Assembly: GCF_037095755.1 (NCBI RefSeq)
Contig: NZ_JBAWKJ010000001.1
Span: 1,367,001-1,431,000, forward strand
Direction: 5' to 3'
DNA from: Sphingopyxis sp. CCNWLW2
GTDB lineage: Bacteria > Pseudomonadota > Alphaproteobacteria > Sphingomonadales > Sphingomonadaceae
DNA length: 64,000 nucleotides
Positions 24,107-42,647 of this stretch are shown piece after piece. The number at the start of each line of letters is the position of its first letter. Position 1 is the first letter of the stretch. The notes beneath the pieces are model-generated. The model saw only the letters and a program-made list of their open reading frames with translations. It had not been told where the DNA came from and searched no databases. Both the position numbers and the translations under genes were made by a program.

Positions 24107-25146
24107 CCGACGATGTCCTGATCTCGACTGACGTCCGCGTCGGCCGCATTTCGCTCAATCGCCCGAAGGCGATCCACGCGCTCAACTTCGCCATGTGCGA
24201 AGCGATGATCGCCGCGCTCGTCAAATGGCGCGATGATGATGCGGTCGAGGCGGTGATCATCGATCATAGCGAAGGCCGCGGCTTCTGCGCCGGCGGCGAC
24301 ATCCGCATGCTCGCGGAAAGCGGCGCGAAGGACGGCACCGAAGCGCGCCAATTCTTCCACACCGAATATCGCCTCAACCATCTGCTCTTCACCTATCCCA
24401 AGCCCGTCGTCGCCTTCATGGACGGCATCACGATGGGCGGCGGGGTCGGCATTTCGCAGCCGGCGAAATATCGCGTCGCGACCGAGCACACGCGCTTTGC
24501 GATGCCCGAAACGGGGATCGGCCTGTTCCCCGACGTCGGCGGCGGCTGGTATCTGCCGCGCCTCGAAGGCCGCGTCGGCGCCTATCTCGCGCTCACCGGA
24601 GCACGGCTCGACGGCGCGGAGTGTTTGGCGCTCGGCCTCGCGACGCATTATCTGCCGTCCGAAAAGCTCGCCGAGGCCAAGGCGCGCATCGCGGTCGATC
24701 CCGACCGGATCGGCGGCATATTGGGCGAGCTGTCGGTCACCGCGCCGCCCGCCGGCATCACCCAGCATCTCGAACGGATCAACCGCCTGTTCGCGAGCGA
24801 TACCTATGAGGATATCCTTGCCGCGCTCGAAGCCGATGGCGGCGAATGGGCGACCAAAGAACTGGCGACGCTCCACGGCAAATCGCCCCAGACGTGCAAG
24901 GTCGCGCTCCGCCAGCTCAAGGAAGGCGGCGAGATGCACGACTTCGCTGCGCAGATGACACAGGAATATGCGATAGGCAGCCGCGTCGTTCAGATGCACG
25001 ATTTCATCGAAGGCGTCCGCGCGCTGATCGTCGACAAGGACAATAGCCCGAAATGGGATCCGCCGACCGCCGAAGCCGTCACCGACGACTGGATCGAAGC
25101 GATTTTCGCGCCGCTGCCCGAGAATGAGAAATGGACGCCGCTGTGA
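24103..25146 (+). CDS. 3-hydroxyisobutyryl-CoA hydrolase
   Basis: A 347-residue crotonase-superfamily thioesterase that frees 3-hydroxyisobutyrate in valine degradation. The distinguishing HIBCH segments are MDGITMGGGVGIS, FAMPETGIGLFPDVGG (the catalytic Glu and Asp) and WYLPRLEG. It is longer than a plain enoyl-CoA hydratase, with the typical extra C-terminal domain ending near NEKWTPL. The start overlaps the acyl-CoA dehydrogenase stop by 4 bases (ATGA), and the 3' end overlaps the next small gene. Confidence 0.92.
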   Translation: MTDDVLISTDVRVGRISLNRPKAIHALNFAMCEAMIAALVKWRDDDAVEAVIIDHSEGRGFCAGGDIRMLAESGAKDGTEARQFFHTEYRLNHLLFTYPKPVVAFMDGITMGGGVGISQPAKYRVATEHTRFAMPETGIGLFPDVGGGWYLPRLEGRVGAYLALTGARLDGAECLALGLATHYLPSEKLAEAKARIAVDPDRIGGILGELSVTAPPAGITQHLERINRLFASDTYEDILAALEADGGEWATKELATLHGKSPQTCKVALRQLKEGGEMHDFAAQMTQEYAIGSRVVQMHDFIEGVRALIVDKDNSPKWDPPTAEAVTDDWIEAIFAPLPENEKWTPL

Positions 25147-25487
25147 GCTTTTCTGATCCGATCGCCCTTTATCATGCGGTGAAGCGGAGTTGGTCGGCCG
25201 AGACGATTCCGGATCCGTTCGACCCCGCGAACCCCTGCCTCAACCAGTGCGCGGTCACCGCACTCGCCGTCCATCATCATTTCGGCGGCGATATCGTGAA
25301 GACCGCGACCAAGGGCGGCACGCATTTCTACAACCGAATCGACGGGCGCTATTGGGATCTCGCGACCGACCAGTTCGACGAACCGATTCCCTACGACAAC
25401 CAGCCGACCTCGACCGACGAGGCGCATGACCATGCCACCCCGGCGCAGCTGGACGTGCTGCTGCGCAATATCGACGCCAATCGCTGA
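25143..25487 (+). CDS. Small conserved protein, YunG-like
   Basis: A 114-residue protein probably starting with GTG at 25143 overlapping the hydrolase stop (GTGA); ATG 25131 is an alternative. It contains [22 protein letters not shown], then [19 protein letters not shown], and HDHATPAQL. The Cys-x3-Cys/Ala and His/Asp pattern recalls the papain-like YunG family, in which the conserved Cys, His and Asp would form an active site. No activity is established for that family as far as I know. It sits inside the valine operon with no extra spacing, so it is co-expressed. Confidence 0.7.
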
Positions 25488-25501
25488 TACAGGACAAGAC
25501 C

Positions 25502-26284
25502 ATGAGCTATGAAACCCTCCTCGTCGAAACGCGCGGGGCCGTCACGCTGGTGACGCTCAACCGCCCGCAGGCGCTCAACGCGCTCAACTCGGGCGTGCTC
25601 GACGACCTGATCGCAGCCTTCGCGGCGTTCGAAGCCGATCCCGGCCAGCGCTGCGCCGTCCTCACCGGCTCAGGCGACAAGGCTTTCGCCGCGGGCGCCG
25701 ACATCAAGGAAATGGCGGACAAGCCGGCGTCCGATTTCTACCTCGAAGATTTCTTCTCGAAATGGACGAGCGACTTTGTGAAGAAGGTCCGCAAACCCTG
25801 GATCGCCGCGGTGAACGGCTTCGCGCTTGGCGGCGGCTGCGAGCTTGCGATGATGGCCGATTTCATCATCGCCAGCGACAAGGCAAAGTTCGGCCAGCCC
25901 GAAATCAAGCTCGGCGTCGCGCCGGGCATGGGCGGGTCGCAGAGGCTGACGCGCGCGATCGGCAAGGCGAAGGCGATGGAAATGTGCCTCACCGGCCGGA
26001 TGATGGACGCCGCCGAAGCCGAACGCTCGGGCCTCGTCGCGCGTGTCGTCGAACATGCGACCCTCGTCGACGAAGCGGTGAAGACCGCGACGACGATCGC
26101 CAGCATGCCGCCGATGGCCGCGATGGTGAACAAGGACATGGTCAACGCCGCGTATGAGACGACGCTCGACCAGGGGCTGATCTACGAACGCCGCCTGTTC
26201 CAGATCCTCGCCGCGACCGAGGACAAGGCCGAAGGCATGGCCGCCTTTATCGAGAAACGCGAAGGCGTGTGGAAGGGGCGCTAA
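25502..26284 (+). CDS. Enoyl-CoA hydratase
   Basis: A 260-residue crotonase. The oxyanion-hole segment [13 protein letters not shown] lies near residue 62 and the catalytic block [14 protein letters not shown] plus [16 protein letters not shown] holds both catalytic Glu residues of typical hydratases. In this operon it would hydrate methacrylyl-CoA to 3-hydroxyisobutyryl-CoA. It starts 15 bases after the YunG-like gene and its stop codon shares a base with the next start (TAATG). Confidence 0.92.
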
Positions 26285-27096
26285 TGGCGAACCCGCATTT
26301 CGACCTGATGCTCGCTTATCCCCAGTGGCAGGGATCGGGGCGGCACCAGAATCTGCCGCGCGGCGCGGCAGCGACGGCCGCGGTATGCGCGCGTTTCGCG
26401 CCGCGGGTGGATGTTCCGCTGAGCGATGCGGTAGGTGACGATCACGGGATTGTCCGCTGGAACGCGCTGTTCGAACAATTTACTGCGGCGCAGGCCTTGC
26501 TCGCTCGCCACGCGCCCGATCGGATTCTGACCGCGGGCGGCGACTGTGCAGCGGACATTGCGGTGATCGACTATCTCGCCGCCCGGTATCCGGAACTGCA
26601 TGTCGTCTGGATCGACGCGCATTATGACGCGAACACCCCGGCCACATCGCCCAGCGGCAATCTGCACGGCATGCCGGTGAGCGCGATCATGGGGCATGCG
26701 GCGGAACCGATGCGTCACCTGCTTCGCGCGCCTGTCTCCCCGGATCGGTTCTTCTATTCCTATGTGCGCGTCGGGGATCAAGGCGATCTGGATTTCGGCC
26801 GGCAACAGGGGCTGGCTGTGCTGGACGAAGCTGCTCTTGCGGGGCGACGGGTGCATATTCATTTCGACCTCGACGCACTCGATCCTGTCGAATTCCCGCA
26901 CCTTGCCTATTGCGAAGCCGGCGGCCCGTCGATTGCGGAAGCCGTAGGCTTGGTACGCCGCATCGCGGCAGCGAACGACGTTGTTGGGCTTTCGATCACC
27001 GAATTTGCGCCCGCGAACGATGCGGACGCGGACGCGGGCAGCGAGGTGATCGCGCGGATTTGTAGAGCGGCACTTCAATTGGAAGAGAGAATATGA
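26284..27096 (+). CDS. Arginase/agmatinase-fold protein with altered metal site
   Basis: A 270-residue ureohydrolase-superfamily protein. Motifs are TAGGDCAAD (residues 84-91), WIDAHYDANTP (D111, H113, D115), SGNLHGMP, HFDLDALDP (D195, D197, D200) and SITEFAP (E240). In arginases the first motif is GGDH, whose His binds one Mn; here it is Cys88. The other ligands are kept, so it could still bind one or two metals with changed chemistry. The substrate is unknown. It is locked in the valine operon between enoyl-CoA hydratase (shared TAATG) and mmsB (4-base overlap). Nothing in valine breakdown needs a ureohydrolase, so a guanidino or amide substrate is only a guess. Confidence 0.8.
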   Translation: MANPHFDLMLAYPQWQGSGRHQNLPRGAAATAAVCARFAPRVDVPLSDAVGDDHGIVRWNALFEQFTAAQALLARHAPDRILTAGGDCAADIAVIDYLAARYPELHVVWIDAHYDANTPATSPSGNLHGMPVSAIMGHAAEPMRHLLRAPVSPDRFFYSYVRVGDQGDLDFGRQQGLAVLDEAALAGRRVHIHFDLDALDPVEFPHLAYCEAGGPSIAEAVGLVRRIAAANDVVGLSITEFAPANDADADAGSEVIARICRAALQLEERI

Positions 27097-27968
27097 AAAT
27101 CGCATTTATCGGGCTCGGCAATATGGGCGGCGGCATGGCCGCGAATCTGGCGAAGGCAGGGCACGACGTCCGCGCTTTCGACCTCAGCGAAGAGGCGCTC
27201 GCACGCGCAGTCGAGGCGGGATGCACCCGCGCCGCATCGGCAGCCGAAGCCGTCACCGGCGCCGAGGCGGTGGTCACGATGCTCCCTGCGGGCAAGCATG
27301 TCGCGTCGGTCTACGAAGCCGACGTCTTTCCGAACGCCGCGCCGGGCACCTTGCTCCTCGATTGCTCGACGATCGACGTCGCGACCGCGCGGAGCAACAT
27401 CGAAGCCGCGACCGCCAAGGGGCTCGTCGCGGTCGACGCCCCTGTCTCAGGCGGCATCGCCGCCGCCAACGCGGGCACGCTGACCTTCATGGTCGGCGGC
27501 ACCGATGAAGGCTTCGCGCGCGCCGAACCGATCCTTGCCAAGATGGGCAAAGCGGTGATCCACGCGGGCGACGCGGGCGCGGGGCAGGCGGCGAAGATTT
27601 GCAACAATATGTTGCTCGGCGCCTCTATGGTCGCGACGTGCGAGACGCTCGCGCTCGCGCAGAAATTGGGGCTCGATCCGCAGAAATTCTTCGACATCGC
27701 GAGCGTGTCGTCGGGTCAATGCTGGTCACTGACCAGCTACGCGCCGCTGCCCGGCGTCGGGCCGGCGACGCCTGCCGACAATGATTACAAGGGCGGGTTC
27801 GCGGCAGCGCTGATGCTCAAGGACCTCCGCCTCGCGATGGAGGCCGCGGCGAGCGTCGATGCCGACGTCCCGATGGGGTCGAAGGCGCGCGAGCTGTATG
27901 AAGCCTTCGTCGAAGCCGACAAGGACGGCCGCGACTTTTCGGCGATCATCAAGACGTTGCAAGGTTAA
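27093..27968 (+). CDS. mmsB: 3-hydroxyisobutyrate dehydrogenase
   Basis: A 291-residue beta-hydroxyacid dehydrogenase that oxidises 3-hydroxyisobutyrate to methylmalonate semialdehyde with NAD, feeding MmsA. The nucleotide site is IGLGNMGGGMAANL, the substrate loop VDAPVSGGIAAANAGTL, and the catalytic Lys lies in GAGQAAKICNNMLLG. Length and motifs are typical. It is the last gene of the operon; a hairpin-forming repeat follows. Confidence 0.95.
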   Translation: MKIAFIGLGNMGGGMAANLAKAGHDVRAFDLSEEALARAVEAGCTRAASAAEAVTGAEAVVTMLPAGKHVASVYEADVFPNAAPGTLLLDCSTIDVATARSNIEAATAKGLVAVDAPVSGGIAAANAGTLTFMVGGTDEGFARAEPILAKMGKAVIHAGDAGAGQAAKICNNMLLGASMVATCETLALAQKLGLDPQKFFDIASVSSGQCWSLTSYAPLPGVGPATPADNDYKGGFAAALMLKDLRLAMEAAASVDADVPMGSKARELYEAFVEADKDGRDFSAIIKTLQG

Positions 27969-28390: not shown

Positions 28391-28431
28391 CAAAAGAAAG
28401 GCCGCCTGCCCCGCGTTGGGACAGACGGCCT
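28391..28431 (-). terminator. Terminator downstream of the FadB/J-like gene
   Basis: Stem 28399-28408 with 28422-28431 (one mismatch). Read on the minus strand, the stem is followed by CTTTCTTTTGCC. It would end the long minus-strand catabolic operon. Confidence 0.7.
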
Positions 28432-28454: not shown

Positions 28455-30488
<2,034 letters not shown>

Positions 30489-30549: not shown

Positions 30550-31752
30550 TCAATCGTCGATCGCGGCGTGGACAAAGGTCTTGACCTCGCGCCGTACGGG
30601 ATAGGTGGAGGAGGGCATGAGCTGGGTCATAAAGACCATGCAAATCTCTTCGACCGGATCGACGAAGAAGCCGGTCGAGAACATGCCGCCCCAGTAAAAA
30701 TCGCCGACCGAGCCGGGAATGCCCGCGCGCGCGGGGGCGAGCGTGACCGCGAAGCCGAGGCCGAAGCCGATCCCGGCATTCTCGTCCTCGGAAAAGATGC
30801 CGACGCTGTGCTGCGTCAGGTCGCCGCCGCCGGGCAGATGGTTCGACGTCATCAGCGCCAATGTCTTGCGGCTGATGATCCGCGTGTCGCCGAGCTTGCC
30901 GCCACCGAGCAGCATCAGGCAGAAACGGTGATAATCGTGCAGCGTCGAGGCGAGCCCGCCGCCACCCGAATGAAAGCTGCGGTCCTTCGCCCAGCGGCTG
31001 CGCGCGCCGCTGTCGAAATCCTGCTTCTTGTCCTTGGGATGGAAGGCATAGGCGTCGGCCAGCCGGTGCTGCTGGTCGGCGGGCACCTTGAAGCCGGTAT
31101 CGACCATGCCGAGCGGGCCAAAGATGCGTTCCTGCAAGACCTGCGCGAACGGCTTGCCCTCGATGCGCTCGATCACCGCGCCGAGCACGTCGGTCGCCAT
31201 CGAATAATTCCAGTGCGCCCCGGGGTCGAACTGCAGCGGGATTTTCGCGAGGTCGGCGATGAAGCTGTCCATCGTATAATCGGCGTCGAAATCGTCGATC
31301 TTTGCCTTGCGGTACGCACCGTCGACGGGCGTGCGCTCCTGAAAGCCATAGGTCAGCCCCGCGGTGTGGCGCAGCAGGTCGACCATGCGGATCGGCGACG
31401 CGGGCGGCCGCGTCAGGAAGGGGACGTTGCCCCCGCCCGCGACAAACACGCCGGTGTCCTTGAACTCGGGGCAGAACTTCACCAGCGGGTCCGACAGCGC
31501 GACCTTGCCCTCCTCGAGCAGCATCATAAAGGCGATGCTGGTGATCGGCTTGGTCATGCTGGCGATGCGGAAGATCGCATCCTCCTTCAGCGCTTCGCCG
31601 GGCCGTGCCTCGCCGATGCACGACAGATGCGCGATCTCGCCGCGCCGCGACACAAGTGTCGCCGCGTGCGGCAGCCGGCCGGTGTCGACATATTTGGCGG
31701 CGAGGAAGGCGGGAATGCGGTCCAGCCGCGCGGTGTCGAATCCATGTGTCAT
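30550..31752 (-). CDS. Serine hydrolase, beta-lactamase (class C/EstB) family
   Basis: A 400-residue penicillin-binding-like serine hydrolase. The nucleophile motif is SMTK (S65, K68) within [11 protein letters not shown], and the second-site Tyr is in [21 protein letters not shown] lies near residue 268 and the C-terminal strand motif region is [11 protein letters not shown]. There is no clear signal peptide, so it is probably cytoplasmic. Within an acyl-CoA operon it is more likely an esterase or lactonase than a drug-resistance enzyme. It lies 13 bases after the SDR gene upstream. Confidence 0.88.
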
Positions 31753-31765
31753 GTTGATCGGTCTA

Positions 31766-32569
31766 TCAGTGCGAGGTCTGGCCGAGCAACTGGCGCGTCA
31801 CTGGATGCGAACTGGTCAGCCCGCCGTCGACCGCGATCGCCTGTCCGTTGACATAGCTTGCCTGATCGCTCGCGAGGAACAGCGCGACATTCGCGAGTTC
31901 CTCGGGCTGCGCGGCGCGGCGCAGCGGGTTGAGCTGGCCGAGCTTGTGCGTGACTTCCTTCGCCTTGGCATAATCGAAGGTCGGCTTGGTCATCCCGGTT
32001 TCGGTCAGGCCAGGGCACACCGCATTGACGCGCACGCCGCTCGTCGACAGCTGCTGTGCCGCGACCTTGGCGAGGTTGATCACCCCCGCCTTCGACGCGG
32101 AGTAAGCGCCCGGGCCCGCGCCCGAATTCAAACCCGCGACGCTCGCGGTGAGCACGATCGCGCCGCCGCGGCCTTGATCGACCATCGCCTTGCCGGCGTG
32201 CTTCACCATCAGCGCGGGGCCGATCAAATTAACGCGCAAAGTCTCGGCCCAGGCATCGGGGTCAAAATCGAAAATGCCGCCCATGTCGCCGATGATCCCC
32301 GCGTTCGCGAAGGCGACGTCGAGCGCGCCATAAGTGTCCTTGGCGGTCGCAACGAGCGAGGCGACATCTGCCTCGATACCCGCATCGATTTCGAGCGCGA
32401 CGACTGCGCCGCCGGCATCCTTCACCAGCTGTGCGGTCTCGTGCACCGCTGCCGTCTTGTCCCCGATGACGAGCTTCGCGCCCTCGGCGGCGAAGCGCAG
32501 CGCGCTCGCGCGGCCGATGCCGCTGCCCGCGCCCGTGATGATCGCAACCTTGCCGTCCAATGCGCCCAT
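31766..32569 (-). CDS. Short-chain dehydrogenase
   Basis: A 267-residue classical SDR. The cofactor motif is [13 protein letters not shown], then FANAGIIGD and the catalytic [11 protein letters not shown] near residue 160, with VDGGLTSSH near the C-terminus. The ATGATG start overlaps the stop of the upstream SDR gene and is preceded by GGAGG. The substrate is unknown; the operon suggests a hydroxy- or keto-acyl-CoA or alcohol. It is a paralogue-like companion of the next SDR rather than a duplicate. Confidence 0.9.
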
Positions 32570-33345
32570 CATGCGCCTCCCGAAATCGTGGCTCCGCCAT
32601 CGCACACGATGGTCTGGCCGGTGGTGAAAGCCCCCGCCTTGCTGGCGAGGAAGACCGCGGCGCCCGCGATCTCGTGCGGTTCGCCGATGCGCTTCAAGGT
32701 CGAGGCGGCGGTCGATCGTTTGAGATTTTCTTCATTTTCCCAGAGCGCGCGCGCCATATCGGTGCGCACCAGCCCCGGCGCGATGCAGTTGACGCGCACC
32801 CCGCGCGGCCCGAACTCGACCGCGAAATTGCGCGCGACCTGCATGTCGGCGGCTTTCGAAATGCCGTAAGCGCCGATGATCGGCGATCCCTTGAGTCCGC
32901 CGATCGAGCTGATGATCGTGATCGACCCTTCGCCGCGTTCGAGCATCTCGGGTGCGACCATCGAAATCAGCCAGTGGTTGGACAGGATGTTATTGTCCAT
33001 GATCTTGCGGAACTGGTCGTCGCTGATCCCGAGCCCGGGGCCATAATAGGGGTTCGACGCGGCGTTGCAGACGAGCGTCGTGATCTTGCCAAAGGCGCGG
33101 CGCGTCTCGGCGACCAATATCTCCAGCTCTTCCTTCGAAGAGATGTTCGCGCGCACGGGAAGCGCGGTGCCCTCGCCGAAGCGCGCGTTGATCGCGGCCG
33201 CGGTTTCCTCGCACGCGTCCGCCTTGCGGCTCGAAATCACGACCTTCGCGCCCTGCTCGGCCATCGCCTCGGCCGTCGCCTTGCCGATGCCGCGCGACGA
33301 TCCGGTGATCAGCGCCACCTGCCCGGTCATGTCGAACAGGCTCAT
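32569..33345 (-). CDS. Short-chain dehydrogenase
   Basis: A 258-residue SDR with [31 protein letters not shown] and [20 protein letters not shown]. It ends in [13 protein letters not shown]. It resembles the peroxisomal DHRS4/PECR-like subgroup, so carbonyl or enoyl substrates are possible. The start overlaps the kinase stop by 4 bases (ATGA). It is tightly coupled to the kinase, and so a candidate for the reductase that makes 4-hydroxyacyl-CoA (the LvaD role). That assignment is inference. Confidence 0.88.
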
Positions 33346-34409
33346 GCGCCGGCTTTCTTGGCAAAGTCCCACGCCTTTTCGGCGAGCGGACGGACGCGTT
33401 CGGACATGTCCTTGGCATGCTGCGACGAGGCGGTGCCCTCGATCACGCGCTTCTTGATGCCCTGGATGATCCCGGCGAGGCGGAAGAAATTATAGGCGAA
33501 ATACCAGTTCATGTCGGGCACGCCGTCGCGGCCGGTGGCGGCGCAATAGCGTTCGACCATCTCGTCGAGTTCGGGGATGCCGAGCGCCGCGCGGTCGAGG
33601 TCCATCACCCCCGAACGGCCGCCATTTTCGGTAACCCACGCCATCGCGACATAGGTGAAATCGGCGAGCGGGTCGCCCAATGTCGACAGCTCCCAGTCGA
33701 GCACCGCGAGAACCTCGGGCCGGTCCTTGGCATAGATCATATTGTCGATGCGATAGTCGCCATGGACGACGCTGGTGCGCGTCTGTTCGGGCAGGGTCGC
33801 GGGCAACCACGCGATCAGCTGCTCCATCTCGTCCATCGTCTCGGTTTCGGCGAGGCGGTACTGCTTGGTCCAGCGGTCGACCTGGCGCCCGAAATAATTG
33901 CCCGGCTTGCCGAAGTCGGACAGGCCCGCGGCCTCGACATCGACCTTGTGCAGCGCGGCGAGCGTGTCGATCATCGCTTCATAGGTCGCACGGCGATTTG
34001 CGGGGGTCGACCCCGGCATCGCGCCGTCCCAGATCGTGTGGCCGTCGACCATCCCCATCACATAGAACCAGCTGCCGACGACATCGTCGTCGGTACAGAG
34101 GCCATATTGGCGGGCCACCGGGAAGCCCATCTTATGCAGCCCCGCCTGCACCTTATACTCGCGGTCGACCGCATGCGCCGACGGCAGCAGCGGGCCGAAG
34201 GGTTTGCGCCGGAGCACATAATTGCCCGACGGCGCTGAAATCTTGTACGTCGGGTTCGACTGGCCGCCGGCGAATTTATGCTGGGTCAGCGGGCCTTCGA
34301 AGCCCTCGACATTCGCCTCCATCCACGCCGTCAGCTTCGCCTCGTCGAGCACATCGGCGCCCTCGGGCGCGACGGTGCCGCTGAACGCTTTTTGCGCGTC
34401 GAGCGTCAT
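33342..34409 (-). CDS. APH-fold kinase resembling the ACAD10/11 N-terminal domain (LvaA-like)
   Basis: A 355-residue aminoglycoside-phosphotransferase-fold protein. It shows FAGGQSNPTYKI, LRRKPFGPLLPSAHAVDREY, the catalytic loop HGDYRIDN and LAVLDWELSTLGDPLADF. These are the same signatures as the kinase domain of animal ACAD10/ACAD11 and bacterial LvaA, which phosphorylate the 4-hydroxyl of 4-hydroxyacyl-CoAs. The gene overlaps both neighbours by 4 bases, the alcohol dehydrogenase upstream and the SDR downstream. The matching dehydrogenase half is encoded at 35520-36809. No LvaB-sized partner gene is visible in the cluster. Confidence 0.88.
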   Translation of the reverse strand: MTLDAQKAFSGTVAPEGADVLDEAKLTAWMEANVEGFEGPLTQHKFAGGQSNPTYKISAPSGNYVLRRKPFGPLLPSAHAVDREYKVQAGLHKMGFPVARQYGLCTDDDVVGSWFYVMGMVDGHTIWDGAMPGSTPANRRATYEAMIDTLAALHKVDVEAAGLSDFGKPGNYFGRQVDRWTKQYRLAETETMDEMEQLIAWLPATLPEQTRTSVVHGDYRIDNMIYAKDRPEVLAVLDWELSTLGDPLADFTYVAMAWVTENGGRSGVMDLDRAALGIPELDEMVERYCAATGRDGVPDMNWYFAYNFFRLAGIIQGIKKRVIEGTASSQHAKDMSERVRPLAEKAWDFAKKAGA

Positions 34410-35497
34410 TGGTCGAATACGATCACCGACCGTGCGGCGTCGCCCTTCTTCATCTTGTCGAAGCCTTCGTTGATCCGCTCGAGCGGGATCGTCTCGGCGA
34501 CGATGCTGTCGAGGTCGAGCAGCCCGCGGAGATAAAAATCGACGAGGCGCGGGATATCGACGGGGAAGCGGTTGCCGCCCATTATCGCGCCCTGCAATTT
34601 CTTGCCCGACAGCAGGTCCATCGCGCTCAATCCGACCTTTTCGGCGAGTGGCATCATGCCAAGGATCGTCGCGGTGCCGCCGCGACGCAGCGACGCGACC
34701 GCGAGGCTCGCCGAGGCCGGACGGCCCACGGCCTCGATCGCATGGTCGACGCCGCCCTTCGAGATTTCGACAATCTGCTTCGCGGCATCATCGGCGAGCG
34801 CATCGACGACGTCGGTCGCGCCGAGCTTCACCGCCAGCGCGCGTTTCTCGGGAACCGGGTCGGCGGCGATGATGCGCCCCGCGCCCGCGATCTTCGCGGC
34901 GTTGATCGTCGCGAGCCCGACGCCGCCGCAACCGACGACCGCGACGGTCTCGCCCGGGGTCACCTTGCACGCGTTGAAGATCGTTCCCGCGCCCGTCGTC
35001 ACCGCGCAGCCGATGACGGCGGCGCGGTCGAGCGGCATGTCGGGGTCGATCGCGACGCACGCATGTTCGTGGACGAGCATCGTTTCGGCAAAGGCGCTGA
35101 GGTTGAGCATCTGGTTGACGATGCTGCCGTCGGGGCGCGTGATGCGCGGCGGCTGTCCGGGCGCGCGGCGCGTGTCGCCGCCCATGCACAGCGACATACG
35201 GCCCGATACGCAGAATTCGCAATGGCCGCAAAAGGCGCTGAGGCAGGTGACGACCGCGTCGCCGACCTTCACCGTGCGCACTTCGCTGCCGACCGCCTCG
35301 ACGATGCCCGCGGCTTCGTGGCCGGGGATCGCGGGCAGCGGATGCGGATAGGCGCCGTCGATGAAATGCAGGTCCGAATGGCAGAGCCCGCACGCGGCGG
35401 TGCGGATGCGCACCTCGTGCGGGCCGCAGTCGGCAATCTGCACTGTCTCGATCGACAGCGGCTTGCCCGGTTCGATCAGAATCGCGGCTTTGGTCAC
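34406..35497 (-). CDS. Zinc-dependent alcohol dehydrogenase (class III-like MDR)
   Basis: A 363-residue medium-chain dehydrogenase. Catalytic zinc ligands lie in AACGLCHSDLHF and PGHEAAGIVEAVG. The structural zinc lobe is CGHCEFCVSGRMSLC, and the NAD motif is AVVGCGGVGLATINAA. It starts with GTG at 35497, with GGAGAGA just upstream; the longer frame is antisense-like sequence. It separates the ACAD-like gene from the kinase in the operon. A hydroxyacyl or alcohol substrate feeding the kinase is plausible; glutathione-adduct oxidation is less likely. Confidence 0.9.
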   Translation of the reverse strand: MTKAAILIEPGKPLSIETVQIADCGPHEVRIRTAACGLCHSDLHFIDGAYPHPLPAIPGHEAAGIVEAVGSEVRTVKVGDAVVTCLSAFCGHCEFCVSGRMSLCMGGDTRRAPGQPPRITRPDGSIVNQMLNLSAFAETMLVHEHACVAIDPDMPLDRAAVIGCAVTTGAGTIFNACKVTPGETVAVVGCGGVGLATINAAKIAGAGRIIAADPVPEKRALAVKLGATDVVDALADDAAKQIVEISKGGVDHAIEAVGRPASASLAVASLRRGGTATILGMMPLAEKVGLSAMDLLSGKKLQGAIMGGNRFPVDIPRLVDFYLRGLLDLDSIVAETIPLERINEGFDKMKKGDAARSVIVFDQ

Positions 35498-35519
35498 AAT
35501 TTCTCTCCGACTGCTGGAT

Positions 35520-36809
35520 TTAACGCGAAACGCCGATGTCGCCCGACGAAAAGCCCGGCTCGCTCGCTTCGCTGTGCTTGGCGAACTCGATGCGCGCGAT
35601 CGCGCGTTCGTGGACTTCGTCGGGCCCGTCGGCGAGGCGCAGCGTGCGCTGATGCGCATAGGCTTTGGCCAGCCCGAAATCCTCCGACACGCCGCCGCCG
35701 CCATGCGCCTGGATCGCATCGTCGATGATCTTCAGCGCCATGTTCGGCGCCTGCACCTTGATCATCGCGATCTCGGCCGCGGCCGACTTGTTGCCGACCT
35801 TGTCCATCATGTCGGCGGCCTTGAGGCACAGCAGGCGCGTCATCTCGATGTCGATGCGCGCGCGGGCAAGGCGATGTTCCCAGATGCTATATTCGGCGAC
35901 CTTCTTGCCGAACGCGACGCGCGACTGCAGCCGCTTCGCCATCTTCGCGATCGCTTCTTCCGCCACACCAATGGTGCGCATGCAGTGATGGATGCGTCCC
36001 GGCCCGAGGCGCCCCTGTGCGATCTCGAACCCACGCCCTTCGCCGAGCAGCATCGCTTCCTCGGCCTTGACGCGGACGTCCTTCAGCTCGATTTCCATAT
36101 GGCCGTGCGGCGCGTCGTCATAACCGAAGACGGGCAGGTGGCGGAGGATATTCACCCCCGGCGCGTTCAGCGGCATCAGCACCATCGACTGCTGCGCGTG
36201 GCGCTTCGCGCCGAAGTCGGTCTTGCCCATCACGATCGCGACCTCGCAGCGCGGATCGCCCGCGCCCGACGACCACCATTTGGTGCCGTTGATCACATAA
36301 TCGTCGCCGTCGCGTTCGATCCGCGTCTCGATGTTGGTCGCGTCGGACGAGGCGACGCGCGGCTCGGTCATCAGGAAGGCCGAACGGATCTGGCCGTTCA
36401 TCAGCCGGCCGAGATATTTTTCCTTCTGCGCGCGCGTCCCGTAGCGGTGGAACACTTCCATATTGCCGGTGTCGGGCGCCGAGCAGTTGAACACCTCGCT
36501 CGCAAAGCCGACGCGCCCCATTTCCTCGGCGCACAGCGCATATTCGAGGTTGGAGAGGCCGGGTCCTTCGAATTCGAACGTCTCGTCGACATGGTGGTGC
36601 GCGGCGGACTTGGGCGGCATGAAGAGGTTCCAGATGCCGGCTTCTTTCGCTTCGGCCTTCAGATCCTCGACGATCTGGATGACTTTCCAGCGGTCGCCCG
36701 CCTTGTCCTGTTCGTTATAGGTCGGGACCGCGGGGCGAACCTTGCGTTCGATGAAATCGCGTACCCGGTCGCGCCAATAGACCTGCCGGTCGGTGAGATC
36801 GAAGTCCAT
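35520..36809 (-). CDS. Acyl-CoA dehydrogenase of the ACAD10/11 (LvaC-like) type
   Basis: A 429-residue acyl-CoA-dehydrogenase-fold protein. The segments [42 protein letters not shown] and [12 protein letters not shown] match the dehydrogenase half of ACAD10/11 as I recall it. At the usual catalytic Glu position it has [13 protein letters not shown], an Asp-containing variant typical of that subfamily. In such systems this half eliminates phosphate from 4-phosphoacyl-CoA instead of performing plain oxidation. The start at 36809 follows AAAGGA; an in-frame GTG at 36836 falls inside the palindrome at 36826-36841 and is unlikely. Confidence 0.9.
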
Positions 36810-36919: not shown

Positions 36920-38377
36920 TTACGGATGCGCCCCCGTGGCATCGGGTTCGCCGCGTGCGACGTCGCCCAGCAGCGCCAGCCGCGCTTCGTGATCGGCGCG
37001 CGAGATCGGGAATTTGCGCATCACGATCAGCCCCAGCGTGCCGATGACCAGCACCGCGAGCGCATAGCCGAGCGCGAGATTGCCGAGCACGTCGCTCCCG
37101 ACTTCGCCCGGCTTGGCATTCGCCGGAAAGGCCGCGAACGACAGGATCAGCCCCGCAGCGAAGATGCCGATGCCCGTCGCGCATTTCTGCATGAAGAAAT
37201 AGCCCGCGAAGAACAGCCCCTCCGACCGCCGCCCGGTCTCGCTCTGCGACGCCTCGACGACATCGGCCATCATCGACGACGACAGGATCATCAGGATGAT
37301 CGAGAAGCTGTTGGAGACGAACACGAGCGCGAACATCGCTGCGACGCTCGGCTTGCCCGGCAGGCCGGGAAAAAACCCCTGGATCCACGCGAAATAGATG
37401 CCGCTGTTGACGAGCAAAGAGATCGCGCCCGCGAAAATCGCGCCGTCGCGCTTGCCGAGCCGCGCCGACACGGGGGCGACGAGCACGAAAGCTGCGATCA
37501 TCGAGGCGAACAGCAGAAAGACATAGGCGACCATCTCGCCCTGCGTGAACTGCCAGAAGAAACCGAGCAGGTAATTGTTCATCGAAAAGGTGATGCCCTG
37601 ATTCACGAAGCCGAACAGCGCGGCGAATATCAGCCACAGGAAGGCGCGGTTCGACAGCGTGTCGCGCATCTCGCCGAGGACCTGGCGCAGCGTCATTACC
37701 GGTTTCGTATCGGCGATGTTCGACACCGCGATGCGGCTGTGCTGCCCCGCGGCCGAGGTCAGGACCGCGCCCGCCATCAGCAGCGCGCCGGTCAGCGCAT
37801 AGGGGAAATAGCCGTCGGGATCGACGAGCCCCTTCGCGCCGCCGAAGAACACGCCATAGGCGAGCAGCAGGATCAGCAGCCCGCCGCCCCAGCCGAAGAG
37901 GAAGCGATAGCGCATGACGACGGTGCGCTCGTCATAATCGCCCGTCAGCTCGGGCACGATCGCGACCGACGGCACTTCGCACATCGAGACGAGCGAGCGA
38001 ACGATGATCGCAAAGCCGATCAGCCAGGCGACGGTCATCGCATTGCTCATTTCGGGCGGATGCCACAGCAGCATCCACATGATCGCGAGCGGAATCGGCG
38101 CGCCATAAAGCCAGGGGAGGCGGCGCCCCCAGCGGCTGCGCGTGCGGTCGGTGAGTTCGCCGATGATCGGATCGACAAAGGCGTCGGCGATCAGCGCGAC
38201 CATGATCGCGGCGCCGACGACGCCGGGATCGAGCCCGATCACCTGATTGTAGAACAGCAGCAGAAAGGTCGAAAAGCCGTTGTCCTTGACGCCATAGGCG
38301 ATGCTGCCCAGCCCGTGCACGACCTTCAGCCGGACCGGCAGGCGCGTGGCTTTCGGCGCGGCAATTGCCGCGTTCAC
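36920..38377 (-). CDS. GPH-family symporter (MelB-like major facilitator)
   Basis: A 485-residue transporter with about twelve membrane helices. The glycoside-pentoside-hexuronide family signature appears in GLGSIAYGVKDNGFSTFLL (first helix) and DAFVDPIIGELTDRTRSRWGRRLPW (split: DAFVDPIIG near residue 66, RSRWGRR near 80). GPH carriers import sugars and glycosides with Na+ or H+, but sphingomonad members also occur next to acyl-CoA degradation genes. The start overlaps the upstream SDR stop (ATGA). The substrate is unknown; a hydroxylated acid or glycoside is possible. Confidence 0.88.
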   Translation of the reverse strand: MNAAIAAPKATRLPVRLKVVHGLGSIAYGVKDNGFSTFLLLFYNQVIGLDPGVVGAAIMVALIADAFVDPIIGELTDRTRSRWGRRLPWLYGAPIPLAIMWMLLWHPPEMSNAMTVAWLIGFAIIVRSLVSMCEVPSVAIVPELTGDYDERTVVMRYRFLFGWGGGLLILLLAYGVFFGGAKGLVDPDGYFPYALTGALLMAGAVLTSAAGQHSRIAVSNIADTKPVMTLRQVLGEMRDTLSNRAFLWLIFAALFGFVNQGITFSMNNYLLGFFWQFTQGEMVAYVFLLFASMIAAFVLVAPVSARLGKRDGAIFAGAISLLVNSGIYFAWIQGFFPGLPGKPSVAAMFALVFVSNSFSIILMILSSSMMADVVEASQSETGRRSEGLFFAGYFFMQKCATGIGIFAAGLILSFAAFPANAKPGEVGSDVLGNLALGYALAVLVIGTLGLIVMRKFPISRADHEARLALLGDVARGEPDATGAHP

Positions 38378-39231
38378 GCCGGCGCCCCGGCCTTTGCCGC
38401 TTCCTCCATTGCGACGAGCGCATCGAATAGTCCGGGGGCTTCGGGGTCCCAGGCATGGCGCTGGCCGATCGTCAGCCCGCCGTCGACCAGCATATGCGTG
38501 CCGGTCATAAAGCTCGACTCCTCGCTCGCGAGATAGGCGACGGCGTTGGCGATATCCTCGGGCTGGCCGCCGCGCGCGACGGGCTGCGCGGCCTCGCTCA
38601 TCCCCGCGATGATCGCCTTTGCCTGATCCTTATGTTCGTCGGGCACGTCGAGCGACGAGGTGAAGATATTGGTGTTGATGAAGCCGGGGCAGATCGCGTT
38701 GACGCGAATGCCGTAACGCGCGAGGTCGGTTGCCGCGATTTTGCTGAGGTGGAGCACGCCCGCCTTGGCGACGGCATAGGCGATCGGCGAATAGCCGGCG
38801 CCGAGTGCCGCGACGCTTGCGGTGTTGACGATGCTGGCACCCTTGCGGCCCTTCATATGCGGCGCGGCGTAGCGGATGCCCATCGCAACCGATTTCAGCA
38901 CGAGGTCCATCGTCAGGTCCCAGCCCTCGGGGCTGATCTCGTCGATCGGGGCGCGGTCGCCCGCGGCGGCGGCGTTGTTGAACACGATATCGATGCCCCC
39001 GGCTTTCGCCGCGGCTTTATTCATCAACGCCTCGATGTCGGATGGCTTGGTGACGTCGCAGCGGACGAAGTCGATCTTGCCGTTCGACTGCTCGGCGAGC
39101 GCGCGCCCGCCCGCCTCGTCGATGTCGGCGGCAAAGACATGCGCGCCCTCGCTCGCGAGTTTCAAAACCGCTGCCTTGCCGATGCCCGACGCCGCTCCGG
39201 TGACGACGGCTATCTTGCCTGCGAATCGCAT
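38374..39231 (-). CDS. Short-chain dehydrogenase
   Basis: A 285-residue SDR with VVTGAASGIGKAAVLKLA, VFNNAAAAGDRAPI, and YAVAKAGVLHLSK as the catalytic block. A C-terminal extension (LTIGQRHAWDPEAPGLFDAL) goes beyond the usual VDGG end. The start at 39231 gives the proper N-terminus; the longer frame enters the divergent promoter. It is the first gene of the GPH transporter unit and divergent from the acyl-CoA dehydrogenase pair. The substrate is unknown. Confidence 0.88.
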   Translation of the reverse strand: MRFAGKIAVVTGAASGIGKAAVLKLASEGAHVFAADIDEAGGRALAEQSNGKIDFVRCDVTKPSDIEALMNKAAAKAGGIDIVFNNAAAAGDRAPIDEISPEGWDLTMDLVLKSVAMGIRYAAPHMKGRKGASIVNTASVAALGAGYSPIAYAVAKAGVLHLSKIAATDLARYGIRVNAICPGFINTNIFTSSLDVPDEHKDQAKAIIAGMSEAAQPVARGGQPEDIANAVAYLASEESSFMTGTHMLVDGGLTIGQRHAWDPEAPGLFDALVAMEEAAKAGAPA

Positions 39232-39279: not shown

Positions 39280-39358
39280 TGACGCGTCAACGGCGGTCAA
39301 ACCGACGCTACGGCGCCGTAACGGCAGGCGCGTCGATCCAAGTTGACGCTTGCGTAAA
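39280..39358. promoter_or_regulatory. Divergent promoter region with three palindromes
   Basis: Between the SDR and the acyl-CoA dehydrogenase gene lie TGACGCGTCA (39280-39289), TACGGCGCCGTA (39309-39320), and TTGACGCTTGCGTAAA (39343-39358). The last is a weaker version of the 36826-36841 palindrome. They are probable regulator sites for both directions. Confidence 0.45.
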
Positions 39359-39404: not shown

Positions 39405-40586
39405 ATGAGCGAACTGGACGCTTTTCGCGCCGAGGTGCGGGACTGGCTGGAGGCCAACTGCCCCGCCGAAATGCGCGAGCCCGTGCGGGACGAAGGCGAC
39501 GTCTGCTGGGGCGGGCGCAACTGGGTGTTCAAGAACGACGCGCAGAAGGCGTGGCTCGAAGCGTGCGTCGCGAAGGGCTACACCGTCCCCGACTGGCCGA
39601 AGCCCTATGGTGGCGCCGGGCTCACCCCCGAGCAGACCAAGGTCCTCAAACAGGAAATGAAGCGCATCCATGCGCGCTCGCCGCTCGACAGCTTCGGCAT
39701 CTGGATGCTCGGCCCCGCGCTGCTGCAATTCGGCACCGAGGAGCAGAAGGTCGAATATCTGAACCCGATCGCGCGCGGCGAAATCCGCTGGTGCCAGGGC
39801 TATTCGGAACCCGGCTCGGGCAGCGACCTCGTCAGTCTGCAGACCTTCGGCGAGGACAAGGGCGATCATTGGGTCGTCAACGGGTCGAAGATCTGGACGA
39901 GCTATGCCGACAAGGCCGACTGGATCTTCTGCCTCGTCCGCACCGACAAGGCGAACAAATATCAGGGCATCACCTTCATGCTCTTCGACATGGCGAGCAA
40001 GGGCGTCACGACCAAGCCGATCCTGCTGATCAGCGGAAATTCGCCCTTCTGCGAGACCTTCTTCGACGATGTCGAGGTGCCGAAGACGCAGTTCATCGGC
40101 GAGATCAACCGCGGCTGGGACGTCGCCAAATATCTGCTCGGCCACGAACGCGAGATGATCTCGGGCGGCGGTGCGGGCGGCGACATGGTCAGCATCGGCG
40201 GCGCCTTTGCCAAGGCGTTCGGCAAGAACGCCGCGGGCGAGCTCGACGATCCGATCCTGCGCGCCGAAATGGCGGCGTTCGACGTCGACGTCTTCGCCTA
40301 CCGCGCGATGGGCGAGCGTTTCATGGACATGTGGAAGACCGGCCGCGCGCACCCCGCGTCGTCGAACATGATGAAATATGTCGGCACCGAACTCAACAAG
40401 CGCCGCCACGAACTCGTCATGTCGGGCGGCGGCAGCGAAGCGCTCGAATGGGACAGCGAAGAGACCAAGGGCGGCGCAAGGGCGCGCGGCTGGCTGCGTA
40501 CCAAGGCCAATTCGATCGAAGGCGGGACGAGCGAAGTCATGCTCAATGTCATCGCCAAGCGTATCCTCGACCTGCCCGGAGCCTGA
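39405..40586 (+). CDS. Acyl-CoA dehydrogenase, FadE type (subunit with Glu)
   Basis: A 393-residue acyl-CoA dehydrogenase. Landmarks are CQGYSEPGSGSDLVSL, KIWTSYADKADWIF, FFDDVEVPKTQFIGEINRGW and C-terminal NSIEGGTSEVMLNVIAKRIL, with Glu372 at the place of the usual catalytic residue. GAGGAG and AAAGG precede ATG 39405; the earlier in-frame GTG at 39279 is in the promoter. The next gene, another acyl-CoA dehydrogenase, begins 3 bases after the stop. Such adjacent pairs form alpha2beta2 enzymes in sterol side-chain degradation; the substrate here is unknown. Confidence 0.9.
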   Translation: MSELDAFRAEVRDWLEANCPAEMREPVRDEGDVCWGGRNWVFKNDAQKAWLEACVAKGYTVPDWPKPYGGAGLTPEQTKVLKQEMKRIHARSPLDSFGIWMLGPALLQFGTEEQKVEYLNPIARGEIRWCQGYSEPGSGSDLVSLQTFGEDKGDHWVVNGSKIWTSYADKADWIFCLVRTDKANKYQGITFMLFDMASKGVTTKPILLISGNSPFCETFFDDVEVPKTQFIGEINRGWDVAKYLLGHEREMISGGGAGGDMVSIGGAFAKAFGKNAAGELDDPILRAEMAAFDVDVFAYRAMGERFMDMWKTGRAHPASSNMMKYVGTELNKRRHELVMSGGGSEALEWDSEETKGGARARGWLRTKANSIEGGTSEVMLNVIAKRILDLPGA

Positions 40587-40589
40587 CCC

Positions 40590-41708
40590 ATGCCTTTGTA
40601 TCACAATGACGACCAGGCGATGCTCAAGGACAGCGTCGCCCCCTTCGTGGCCGAACAGGCGCCGGTGTCGCACCTGCGCAAATTGCGCGACAGCGCCGAC
40701 GCGACCGGCTTCTCGCGCGACCTCTGGGCGCAGTTCACCGAAATGGGCCTGCCCGGCATGCTCGTTCCCGAAGCGCACGGCGGGCTCGGCATGGGGCATA
40801 TGGAAGCGGGCATCGTGCTCGAGGAAATCGGACGCAATCTGACCCCGTCGCCTTTCCTCTCGACCAGCGTCGGCGCGGTCGCCGCGCTCGCGAAGGCGGG
40901 CGGCACACAGGCGGGCCGCTGGCTCCCCGCGATCGCATCGGGCGAGGCGATTATCGCGCTCGCGATCGACGAGGGCGCCAAGCACCGCCCCGACCGCATC
41001 GCGACGACCGCGACGCGCGCCGGCAACGGCTTCCGTCTCGACGGCAAGAAAAGCTTCGTGCTCCACGGCCATGTCGCCGACATGAGCATCGTCGCGGCAA
41101 AGACCGACGGCGGGATCACGCTGTTCGCGGTGCCGAAGGATGCGAAAGGCGCCACCGCCGATCCGCGCCGCCTCGTCGACTCGAGCCTTGCGAGCCACGT
41201 CACGCTCGACGGCGTCGAGGTCGATGCCGACGCGGTGATCGGTGAGGTCGATGCGGGCGAGGATGTGCTGAACGCGCTGCTCGCCGCGACCCGCACCGGC
41301 GCCGCCGCCGAAATGGTCGGCGTCGGGCAGGGCGCGATGGACATGACGGTCAATTACCTCAAGGAACGCAAGCAGTTCGGCAAGCTGATCGGCGAGTTCC
41401 AGGGCCTCCAGCACCGCGCCGCGCATCTCTATGGCGAGATGGAAGTCGCGCGCGCCACCGTGATGAAGGCGCAGCAACTGCTCGACGAGGGCAGCGAAGG
41501 CGCGAAGCTGATGGTCTCGGTCGCCAAGGCGAAGGCCGGCCGCGCCGCCAACCTCGCGGTGCGCGAAGGCGTCCAGATGCACGGCGGCATCGGCATGACC
41601 GACGAATATGACATCGGCCTCTACATGAAACGCGACCGCGCGCTCGCCGAATATATGGGCGATGTGCATTACCACATCGACCAGGTCGCGCGGATGAATG
41701 GTTACTAA
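40590..41708 (+). CDS. Acyl-CoA dehydrogenase, probable non-catalytic partner subunit
   Basis: A 372-residue acyl-CoA dehydrogenase with a weaker family pattern. ERKQFGKLIGEFQGLQ (FAD/dimer loop) and QMHGGIGMTDEYDIGLYMKR are normal. The last helix reads ALAEYMGDVHYHID where catalytic members have YEGT, so the Glu is replaced by Met356. Together with direct adjacency (3 bases) to the Glu-containing acyl-CoA dehydrogenase, this suggests the beta subunit of a heteromeric enzyme. The start ATG 40590 has a weak upstream ribosome site, in keeping with coupling. Confidence 0.88.
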   Translation: MPLYHNDDQAMLKDSVAPFVAEQAPVSHLRKLRDSADATGFSRDLWAQFTEMGLPGMLVPEAHGGLGMGHMEAGIVLEEIGRNLTPSPFLSTSVGAVAALAKAGGTQAGRWLPAIASGEAIIALAIDEGAKHRPDRIATTATRAGNGFRLDGKKSFVLHGHVADMSIVAAKTDGGITLFAVPKDAKGATADPRRLVDSSLASHVTLDGVEVDADAVIGEVDAGEDVLNALLAATRTGAAAEMVGVGQGAMDMTVNYLKERKQFGKLIGEFQGLQHRAAHLYGEMEVARATVMKAQQLLDEGSEGAKLMVSVAKAKAGRAANLAVREGVQMHGGIGMTDEYDIGLYMKRDRALAEYMGDVHYHIDQVARMNGY

Positions 41709-41826: not shown

Positions 41827-41843
41827 AGAAAAAGGATTGCACT

Positions 41844-42647
41844 ATGAACCTTCAGGACATGTTCGGCCTCGACGGCCGCATCGCACTCGTCACCGGCGGC
41901 TCGCGCGGCATCGGCAAGATGATCGTCGAGGGCTATCTCGCCGCGGGCGCGGCGCGCGTCTATATCTCGGCGCGCAAGAGCGCGCAGATCGAGGAAGCCG
42001 TCGCCGATTTCGAAACGCGCTATCCGGGCAAGGTCATCGGCCTGCCGGTCGACCTGTCGACCGTCGAAGGGTGCCGCGCGCTCGCGTCGGAGCTCGAAGC
42101 GCGCGAAGAGCGCCTCGACATCCTCGTCAACAACGCCGGCGCGGCGTGGGGCGAACCGTTCGAGGGCTTCCCCGAGGCGGGCTGGGACAAGGTGATGGAC
42201 ATCAACGTCAAATCGCCCTTCTTCCTGACGCAGGCGCTCCACGGGCTGCTCAAGGGCGGCGGCACCGCCGACCGTCCGGCGAAGGTGATCAACATCGGCT
42301 CGATCGACGGCCAGCGTTTGAACCCCTGGGAAACCTACAGCTATCACGCGTCGAAGGCCGCGATCCTCTACCTCACCAAGCGGCTCGCGGCGCGGCTGGT
42401 GCAGGATCATATCCTCGTCACCGCGATCGCGCCGGGCGCCTTCCAGTCGGACATGAACAAGGCGGCGCGCGACCATGGCGACGCGGTGGCGCAAAGCATC
42501 CCGGTCAAGCGCATCGGCGTCCCCGAGGATATGGCCGGCGCCGCGATCTTCCTCGCGTCGAAGGCGGGCGACTATGTCGTCGGCGACACGATCACCGTCG
42601 ACGGCGGGCTCGTCCACGGCGACGTCCGGACGAGCATCGACGCGTAA
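41844..42647 (+). CDS. Short-chain dehydrogenase (RhlG/FabG-like)
   Basis: A 267-residue SDR. VTGGSRGIGKMIVEGYL is the cofactor motif, followed by ILVNNAGAAWGEPF and YSYHASKAAILYLTKRL; it ends in ITVDGGLVHGD. The long N-terminal MNLQDMFGLDGR and the ARVYISARK segment recall RhlG-like 3-oxoacyl reductases. AAAGG lies before ATG 41844. It lies downstream of the acyl-CoA dehydrogenase pair, separated by repeats, and may belong to the same catabolic unit. Confidence 0.88.
   Translation: MNLQDMFGLDGRIALVTGGSRGIGKMIVEGYLAAGAARVYISARKSAQIEEAVADFETRYPGKVIGLPVDLSTVEGCRALASELEAREERLDILVNNAGAAWGEPFEGFPEAGWDKVMDINVKSPFFLTQALHGLLKGGGTADRPAKVINIGSIDGQRLNPWETYSYHASKAAILYLTKRLAARLVQDHILVTAIAPGAFQSDMNKAARDHGDAVAQSIPVKRIGVPEDMAGAAIFLASKAGDYVVGDTITVDGGLVHGDVRTSIDA

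Follow-up and report, generated by a model that had tools for sequence, protein, structure and literature searches.

The 64,000-nucleotide stretch of the Sphingopyxis sp. CCNWLW2 genome analyzed here (contig NZ_JBAWKJ010000001.1, positions 1,367,001 to 1,431,000; hereafter, the window) carries on its minus strand nine closely packed genes that run from 39231 to 28455, the first encoding a short-chain dehydrogenase/reductase (SDR1) and the last a FadB-like enzyme. Two of the nine encode a kinase and an acyl-coenzyme A (CoA) dehydrogenase, denoted ACADc, and both open reading frames (ORFs) lie on this strand at the coordinates assigned to them in a preliminary description of this DNA. Judging from their sequences, these genes each correspond to one of the two catalytic domains of the animal proteins ACAD10 and ACAD11, here encoded separately, and we put at about 85% the probability that their products perform both reactions, phosphorylation and phosphate elimination.

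33342..34409, minus strand: LvaA/ACAD11-type APH-fold kinase of 355 amino acids, predicted to be a 4-hydroxyacyl-CoA kinase (Pfam APH; PDB matches 3dxp and ACAD11; residues D218, N223, and R175)
35520..36809, minus strand: ACADc, LvaC/ACAD11-type flavin dehydrogenase of 429 amino acids (best PDB matches 2wbi and 8v3u; signature residues)

ACAD10 and ACAD11 have been reported to phosphorylate 4-hydroxyacyl-CoA and then to eliminate the phosphate, yielding an enoyl-CoA (PMC12440821; PMC11342911). In animals, where both domains form one fused protein, this opens 4-hydroxy fatty acids to degradation. The residues named for mouse ACAD11 are D220, N225, and R176 of the kinase half and R626, R631, H634, R637, and D753 of the dehydrogenase half, D753 being the catalytic base; non-conservative changes of R626, H634, or R637 hit the second step hardest, and R637K does so only partly (PMC12440821).

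The kinase matches the Pfam APH model (E = 4.5e-50) and 6 distinct PDB sequences at E ≤ 1e-3, the best of these being 3dxp (E = 6.6e-116) and mouse ACAD11 (8v3v, E = 6.7e-70; 8v3u, E = 8.7e-69). Alignment with mouse ACAD11 over nearly the whole length of the kinase yields 130 identical residues among 327 (40%) and equates R83, R175, D218, and N223 with R84, R176, D220, and N225, so that the catalytic aspartate (D218), the helper asparagine (N223), and the CoA-contacting arginine (R175) are all retained; the tested residues are identical in 80/80 kinase orthologues from 80 loci. An aminoglycoside APH(3') resistance kinase was considered and rejected, given an NCBIfam score of 32.5 bits against a cut-off of 205 bits and the far stronger match to the ACAD11 kinase. 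The protein search returned at least 8000 proteins at E ≤ 1e-30, and all 120 listed are close relatives. The best matches among named genomes come from Sphingopyxis, with a kinase of 99% identity in Sphingopyxis sp. LC81. The kinase tree places ACAD11 among bacterial kinases, within the part containing the kinase of the window (support 0.925, then 0.821); with a single long outgroup branch, it gives no ranking of one APH family against another.

ACADc matches all three Pfam acyl-CoA dehydrogenase domains, and its best PDB matches are human and mouse ACAD11 (2wbi, 426 bits; 8v3u; 8v3v) and 4hr3 (401 bits), followed at 133 bits by 4iv6 (FadE3). In an alignment with mouse ACAD11 along nearly the full length of ACADc, 212 of the 381 aligned residues are identical (56%), and H237, R267, R272, H275, R278, and D394 correspond to H597, R626, R631, H634, R637, and D753. 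These residues are identical in all 70 full-length orthologues from the 80 loci; the other 10 loci, most of them short or cut, yielded no full-length ACADc, with a partial match in L100 and none in L110. We refer to R-R-H-R plus aspartate, at the positions of R626, R631, H634, R637, and D753, as the five-residue signature. Ordinary acyl-CoA dehydrogenases lack the aspartate and the three phosphate-binding residues (R626, H634, and R637), and an assignment of ACADc to the ordinary FadE type was rejected on these residues. ACAD11 is among the top PDB matches of both proteins, and the claim that kinase and dehydrogenase resemble the two halves of ACAD11, down to the residues involved in phosphate elimination, is borne out.

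The association of the signature with the kinase was examined in a survey of 200 Pseudomonadota genomes, of which 51 contain the kinase (E ≤ 1e-35); of the 64 kinase sites listed, 40 were analyzed, two of these stretches ending at contig ends. The 40 loci hold 22 dehydrogenase ORFs, and 21 of these, one per locus, carry the full signature, the single exception being an ORF that resembles ACADx, a dehydrogenase encoded opposite the operon of the window (see below). In the control set, the signature was found in one of 22 other dehydrogenase ORFs from 17 stretches of the Sphingopyxis genome itself, and in that genome as a whole in 3 of 31 dehydrogenase matches, leaving 28 without it; all these counts are descriptive because related sequences are not independent. 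Seven annotated plasmid records (Novosphingobium, Paraburkholderia, Rhodococcus, Sphingobium, Chelatococcus, Deinococcus, and the archaeon Haladaptatus) were also inspected; the signature is present in the dehydrogenase closest to the kinase in 7/7, and four of these seven enzymes are only 33-37% identical to ACAD11. Other dehydrogenases in plasmid records lack the signature: two of Novosphingobium, one of Haladaptatus, and those of the ACADx/ACADy types in Croceicoccus and Sulfitobacter.

In a tree of 49 dehydrogenases, the signature carriers form one clade with support 1.0 that includes mouse ACAD11, the exact place of which has support of 0.082; the divergent signature dehydrogenases form no well-supported single group (0.621). 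Because divergent members carry the signature, descent of one operon is unlikely to be the sole cause of the pattern. At loci L122, L125, L126, and L127, the archaeal one included, the kinase-linked dehydrogenases (33-37% identity to ACAD11) share a motif resembling S/GPARLxHCMR. Separately, a histidine phosphatase-like gene is located near the kinase in 15/40 loci, with or without a signature dehydrogenase (L147-L149, L151-L155, L157, L158, L170, L171, and L176-L178).

Within the family, the kinase was detected in 159/199 genomes (E ≤ 1e-40) and ACADc or a close paralogue in 148/199 (E ≤ 1e-80). Linkage was counted in the 126 genomes with both genes among the matches listed (150 of each): the two lie within 6 kilobases (kb) of each other in 91 genomes, on the same strand in 89, and separated by a gap of 0.8-1.6 kb, the size of an alcohol dehydrogenase gene, in 83. 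This linkage bears on the possibility that the pair consists of a phosphotransferase acting on antibiotics or other small molecules and an ordinary FadE-type enzyme, neighbors devoid of joint function. The APH fold and weak matches to APH(3') and thiamine kinase models would fit such an assignment, but the APH(3') score is far below its cut-off, the ACAD11 kinase is matched at E = 6.7e-70, 28 of the 31 dehydrogenase matches of the genome lack the signature present in ACADc, and the genes are linked in 91/126 genomes; we consider this explanation highly implausible.

The other genes and features of the cluster, in the order of their transcription from the shared intergenic region outward, are as follows.

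39309..39320, no strand: perfect palindrome TACGGCGCCGTA, a candidate operator between the divergent operons
38374..39231, minus strand: SDR1, first gene of the operon (NCBIfam SDR models; in 50/63 loci)
36920..38377, minus strand: GPH-type MFS transporter (Pfam MFS_2, E = 9e-108)
34406..35497, minus strand: zinc alcohol dehydrogenase (Zn-ADH), class I/III-like, of the medium-chain dehydrogenase/reductase type, between ACADc and the kinase (Pfam; PDB alcohol dehydrogenases, E of about 1e-75)
32569..33348, minus strand: SDR2 (Pfam adh_short_C2)
31766..32569, minus strand: SDR3 (Pfam adh_short_C2)
30550..31752, minus strand: serine beta-lactamase-fold esterase (Pfam PF00144; PDB 7pp3, E = 1.2e-107; 4ivi, E = 8.7e-75)
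28455..30488, minus strand: FadB/FadJ-like enoyl-CoA hydratase/3-hydroxyacyl-CoA dehydrogenase (Pfam ECH_1, 3HCDH_N, 3HCDH)
28399..28431, minus strand: 14-pair terminator-like hairpin downstream of the last operon gene (hairpin scan)
39405..40586, plus strand: ACADx, large-subunit-like acyl-CoA dehydrogenase (pimC-like; PDB 6wy9, 6wy8, and 4x28; in 63/63 loci)
40590..41708, plus strand: ACADy, small-subunit-like acyl-CoA dehydrogenase (pimD-like; PDB; in 63/63 loci)
41841..42647, plus strand: SDR4 of the divergent operon (NCBIfam SDR models; in 63/63 loci)

The placement of kinase and dehydrogenase in one operon thus holds, and the membership given for that operon in the preliminary description was incomplete: it includes three SDRs, not two, and the transporter, and the facing genes for ACADx, ACADy, and SDR4 had been omitted. 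By coordinates, the genes of the operon overlap by 1-7 bp, as do those for Zn-ADH and the kinase (4 bp), or are separated by gaps of 13-110 bp. Hence a gene of the size of lvaB would not fit, and the absence of such a subunit from the operon, noted earlier, stands. The class labels are approximate for some members: NCBIfam scores of Zn-ADH are under every cut-off shown, the FadB-like protein scores 463 bits with the FadB model, below its 870-bit cut-off, and the esterase presumably belongs to what is called family VIII. Over the stretch scanned for hairpins there are 13 terminator-like sites, where shuffled sequences lead one to expect 9.9, and the one at 28399-28431 has the longest stem listed; the Rfam scan of window positions 25-43 kb produced no match. 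Beyond the hairpin, positions 22916-27968 on the plus strand hold genes that by eye look like those for valine catabolism (an acyl-CoA dehydrogenase, hydrolase/hydratase genes, and an mmsB-like gene), of which the enoyl-CoA hydratase and mmsB-like genes are conserved next to the operon in most Sphingopyxis loci.

Conservation of the cluster was assessed in 63 named loci with 10 kb of upstream sequence, chosen by close likeness of the kinase (79-99%). SDR4, ACADy, ACADx, ACADc, and Zn-ADH accompany the kinase in 63/63 loci, the transporter in 61, and SDR1 in 50. The downstream set of SDR2, SDR3, esterase, and FadB occurs complete in 41/63 loci having 6.5 kb of downstream sequence, including none of the 8 Novosphingobium-named and none of the 4 Tsuneonella-named loci. 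Among 20 further loci with kinases 59-77% identical, picked from genomes already showing the linked pair, ACADx with ACADy nearby was present in 15 (among the matches listed). These counts support a conserved sphingomonad module. In Novosphingobium capsulatum, genes for ACADc, the kinase, SDR2, SDR3, and FadB run on into those for a CoA ligase and a further heteromer-type dehydrogenase pair. Sulfitobacter, outside the order, combines the kinase with an ACADx relative (62%), an ACADy relative (50%), two SDRs, and enzymes of the thiolase and histidine phosphatase types. On plasmid pISP1 of Sphingomonas sp. MM-1, an ACADc relative (71%; L117, 9001-10239, plus strand) lies between linX/linA and gorA, with IS6100 copies nearby and an annotated phosphotransferase family protein gene about 9 kb away.

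The addition made here is this conserved sphingomonad cluster, in which an SDR and a heteromer-type dehydrogenase pair, divergently transcribed, face a transporter, an LvaC-type dehydrogenase, Zn-ADH, and an LvaA-type kinase. No report of it was found by title or abstract in the open-access literature.

The Sphingopyxis genome encodes three signature dehydrogenases and one close kinase, the next kinase matches having E values of 2e-8 or weaker. The second signature dehydrogenase (RRHRD; L001, 8850-10094, minus strand) is 50% identical to mouse ACAD11 and by eye adjoins a LysR-like regulator. The third (L187, 9406-10587, plus strand) is divergent, with 34% identity to ACAD11, and its neighbors, recognized by eye, are ACADy- and then ACADx-like dehydrogenases, an SDR, and thiolase-like and CaiB-like CoA-transferase-like genes. 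Two of these weaker matches (L002, 9671-11278, minus strand; L003, 8546-9889, plus strand) are APH kinases fused to DUF6285, identical to each other in 428 of 447 residues (96%). As in the window pair, these APH-fold kinases stand beside acyl-CoA dehydrogenases, which are identical in 417 of 427 residues (98%); unlike ACADc, however, these have a glutamate at the position of the ACAD11 aspartate and no phosphate signature (the L003 enzyme lacks equivalents of R626, H634, R637, and D753), and the L003 kinase is only 24% identical to that of ACAD11. The L002 and L003 loci represent a parallel kinase-dehydrogenase system. DUF6285, which may be a lead to LvaB, was found in this genome only in these two fusions. 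A search for LvaB-sized ORFs (75-160 amino acids, at most 150 bp from the kinase, with a codon-bias filter that could hide others) in the 40 Pseudomonadota loci yielded three, which by eye resemble MaoC, Ada-type, and thioesterase proteins.

Several observations weigh against the assignment of the window pair to two coupled reactions. The kinase and ACADc are far apart or on separate contigs in 35 of the 126 genomes (among the matches listed), no dehydrogenase ORF lies within reach of the kinase in 19 of the 40 Pseudomonadota loci, the Sulfitobacter stretch has only ACADx/ACADy relatives near the kinase and no signature dehydrogenase, and the metagenome-assembled sphingomonad locus L110 holds ACADx, SDR1, transporter, Zn-ADH, kinase, SDR2, SDR3, esterase, and FadB with no ACADc match between transporter and Zn-ADH; the kinase is therefore not always coupled in place to ACADc. 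Conversely, no kinase match was found in the 19.5-kb stretch around the second signature dehydrogenase (L001), and none was recognized beside the third (L187). None of the twelve cluster genes gave an AMP-binding match indicative of a CoA ligase (Pfam for ten, NCBIfam for SDR1 and SDR4). As for the residue comparisons, the signature of distant dehydrogenases was read from pairwise alignments with 20-31% identity, on which the letters assigned depend, and R86 as published does not fall on an arginine under the numbering that fits all other residues, so that R84, next to a conserved glutamate, was compared instead. Nevertheless, the homology of both proteins to the halves of ACAD11, the conserved residues, and the signature in 21/22 kinase-linked dehydrogenases against 3/31 in the genome itself make the two reactions very likely.

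Compared by the mouse ACAD11 sequence, both halves of which are homologous to the window pair with all tested catalytic, phosphate-binding, and CoA-binding residues the same, the bacterial proteins differ from mammalian ACAD11 and ACAD10 in being two polypeptides, encoded in an operon with a Zn-ADH gene between them and without the HAD domain of the ACAD10 type. Separate LvaA and LvaC orthologues of Burkholderia pseudomallei (UniProt Q63VL0 and Q63VL1), likened here by their description, are a kinase and a dehydrogenase as in the window and reportedly replace the halves of ACAD10 in vitro; LvaB does not occur in the main text of that report (PMC11342911). The lva-type cluster of Pseudomonas citronellolis LA18T has no lvaB in the region analyzed and includes a histidine phosphatase gene (PMC6692424), so the lack of LvaB is not strange in itself. 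The chemistry is thus already known, an active split bacterial pair (PMC11342911) and an lva-type cluster without LvaB (PMC6692424) being on record; the split and the missing LvaB, which had been put forward as features of the window, are both real and neither is unusual.

An LvaA-type kinase, an LvaC-type dehydrogenase, and an SDR are common to the window, the P. putida lva operon, and the P. citronellolis cluster (PMC6692424); the likeness to LvaA and LvaC proposed earlier is backed by homology and residues shared with ACAD11 and, for the Lva proteins themselves, draws on published text. The pair alongside SDRs, together with reported lvaABCD homologues in Alpha-, Beta-, and Gammaproteobacteria (PMC6692424, citing Rand 2017), would be compatible with a levulinate pathway, in which an SDR reduces levulinyl-CoA to 4-hydroxyvaleryl-CoA before the pair acts. 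The window differs from the lva operons, however, in having a transporter, Zn-ADH, esterase, FadB-like enzyme, and divergent dehydrogenase pair in addition, and membership among them was rejected because two defining parts, room for lvaB and the CoA ligase gene lvaE, are lacking among the twelve genes. With these parts missing, the substrate may be something other than levulinate, and the gamma-lactones suggested earlier are an inference. No gene specific to levulinate was found in the cluster, no sigma54 regulator was recognized by eye among the ORF starts (no search for one was made), and the conserved transporter, Zn-ADH, and heteromer-type dehydrogenase pair hint at larger or branched acyl chains, so that a levulinate pathway appears decidedly unlikely.

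ACADx scores 277 bits with the pimC-like model (cut-off 624) and ACADy, its likely partner, 222 bits with the pimD-like model (cut-off 653); the best PDB matches of ACADx (6wy9, 6wy8, and 4x28) are, we assume, heteromeric steroid side-chain dehydrogenases. Both ACADx and ACADy lack equivalents of R626, H634, R637, and D753 when aligned to mouse ACAD11. Given that all model scores are far below the cut-offs, the pair merely hints at bulky or branched acyl chains. The intergenic palindrome TACGGCGCCGTA occurs at a single place in the window, which is also its only site in the whole 4.6-Mb genome, and is present exactly in 36 of 58 related intergenic regions, the window included; by eye, no regulator gene was recognized in the cluster.

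It is quite possible, although somewhat short of even odds, that the same two reactions serve a substrate in which the hydroxyl gamma to the thioester is borne on a ring or branch, as in terpenoid, steroid, or oxylipin breakdown, an alternative that concerns the substrate and not the chemistry. The similarity of ACADx/ACADy to pimeloyl-CoA models and heteromeric dehydrogenase structures argues for it, as does the recurrence, next to pairs of this kind, of related kinases or signature dehydrogenases (Sulfitobacter, Novosphingobium, and the L187 locus). On the other side, no characterized member of either type is close enough to name a substrate, the model scores remain far below cut-offs, and ACADx with ACADy was not seen nearby in 5 of the 20 more distant linked loci (among the matches listed).

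Under the assignment to phosphorylation and phosphate elimination, and by analogy with enzymes tested elsewhere, the kinase would transfer phosphate from ATP to the 4-hydroxyl group of a 4-hydroxyacyl-CoA; ACADc, with R267, H275, and R278 predicted to hold the phosphate, would employ D394 and a transiently redox-active flavin adenine dinucleotide to eliminate it, producing a 2-enoyl-CoA with no net oxidation. More speculatively, the FadB-like enzyme may hydrate and oxidize this product by the usual beta-oxidation steps, the transporter may serve for uptake of the acid, the esterase may hydrolyze lactones or esters, and ACADx/ACADy may oxidize a bulkier acyl-CoA before or after the phosphate-elimination step. 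ACAD10 prefers the R form of its substrate about fourfold (PMC11342911), so two 4-hydroxy/4-oxo dehydrogenases with opposite preferences would be an advantage; Zn-ADH and the SDRs could fill this role, interconverting 4-hydroxy and 4-oxo forms, including the enantiomer less well taken by the kinase.

An extended proposal, which we regard as rather unlikely and offer tentatively, is a dedicated pathway of the sphingomonad family in which phosphorylation and elimination, as in the breakdown of 4-hydroxy fatty acids by animals, are coupled to a heteromeric acyl-CoA dehydrogenase of the steroid/pimeloyl type, a Zn-ADH/SDR set that corrects the configuration of the 4-hydroxyl, and a transporter, for the degradation of bulky lactone-forming compounds. 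In this genome a single kinase would then supply three signature dehydrogenases, of which two are encoded at other loci, making the phospho-intermediate a branch point rather than a private intermediate. More broadly, the recently solved chemistry of animal ACAD10 and ACAD11 is placed in a bacterial family with separate, easily assayed halves. The sequence rule of R-R-H-R plus aspartate tells such enzymes apart from the numerous ordinary acyl-CoA dehydrogenases that bear the same name and also flags signature enzymes without an adjoining kinase, making the question of a shared kinase directly testable, and the conserved neighboring genes provide a lead to natural bacterial substrates other than levulinate.

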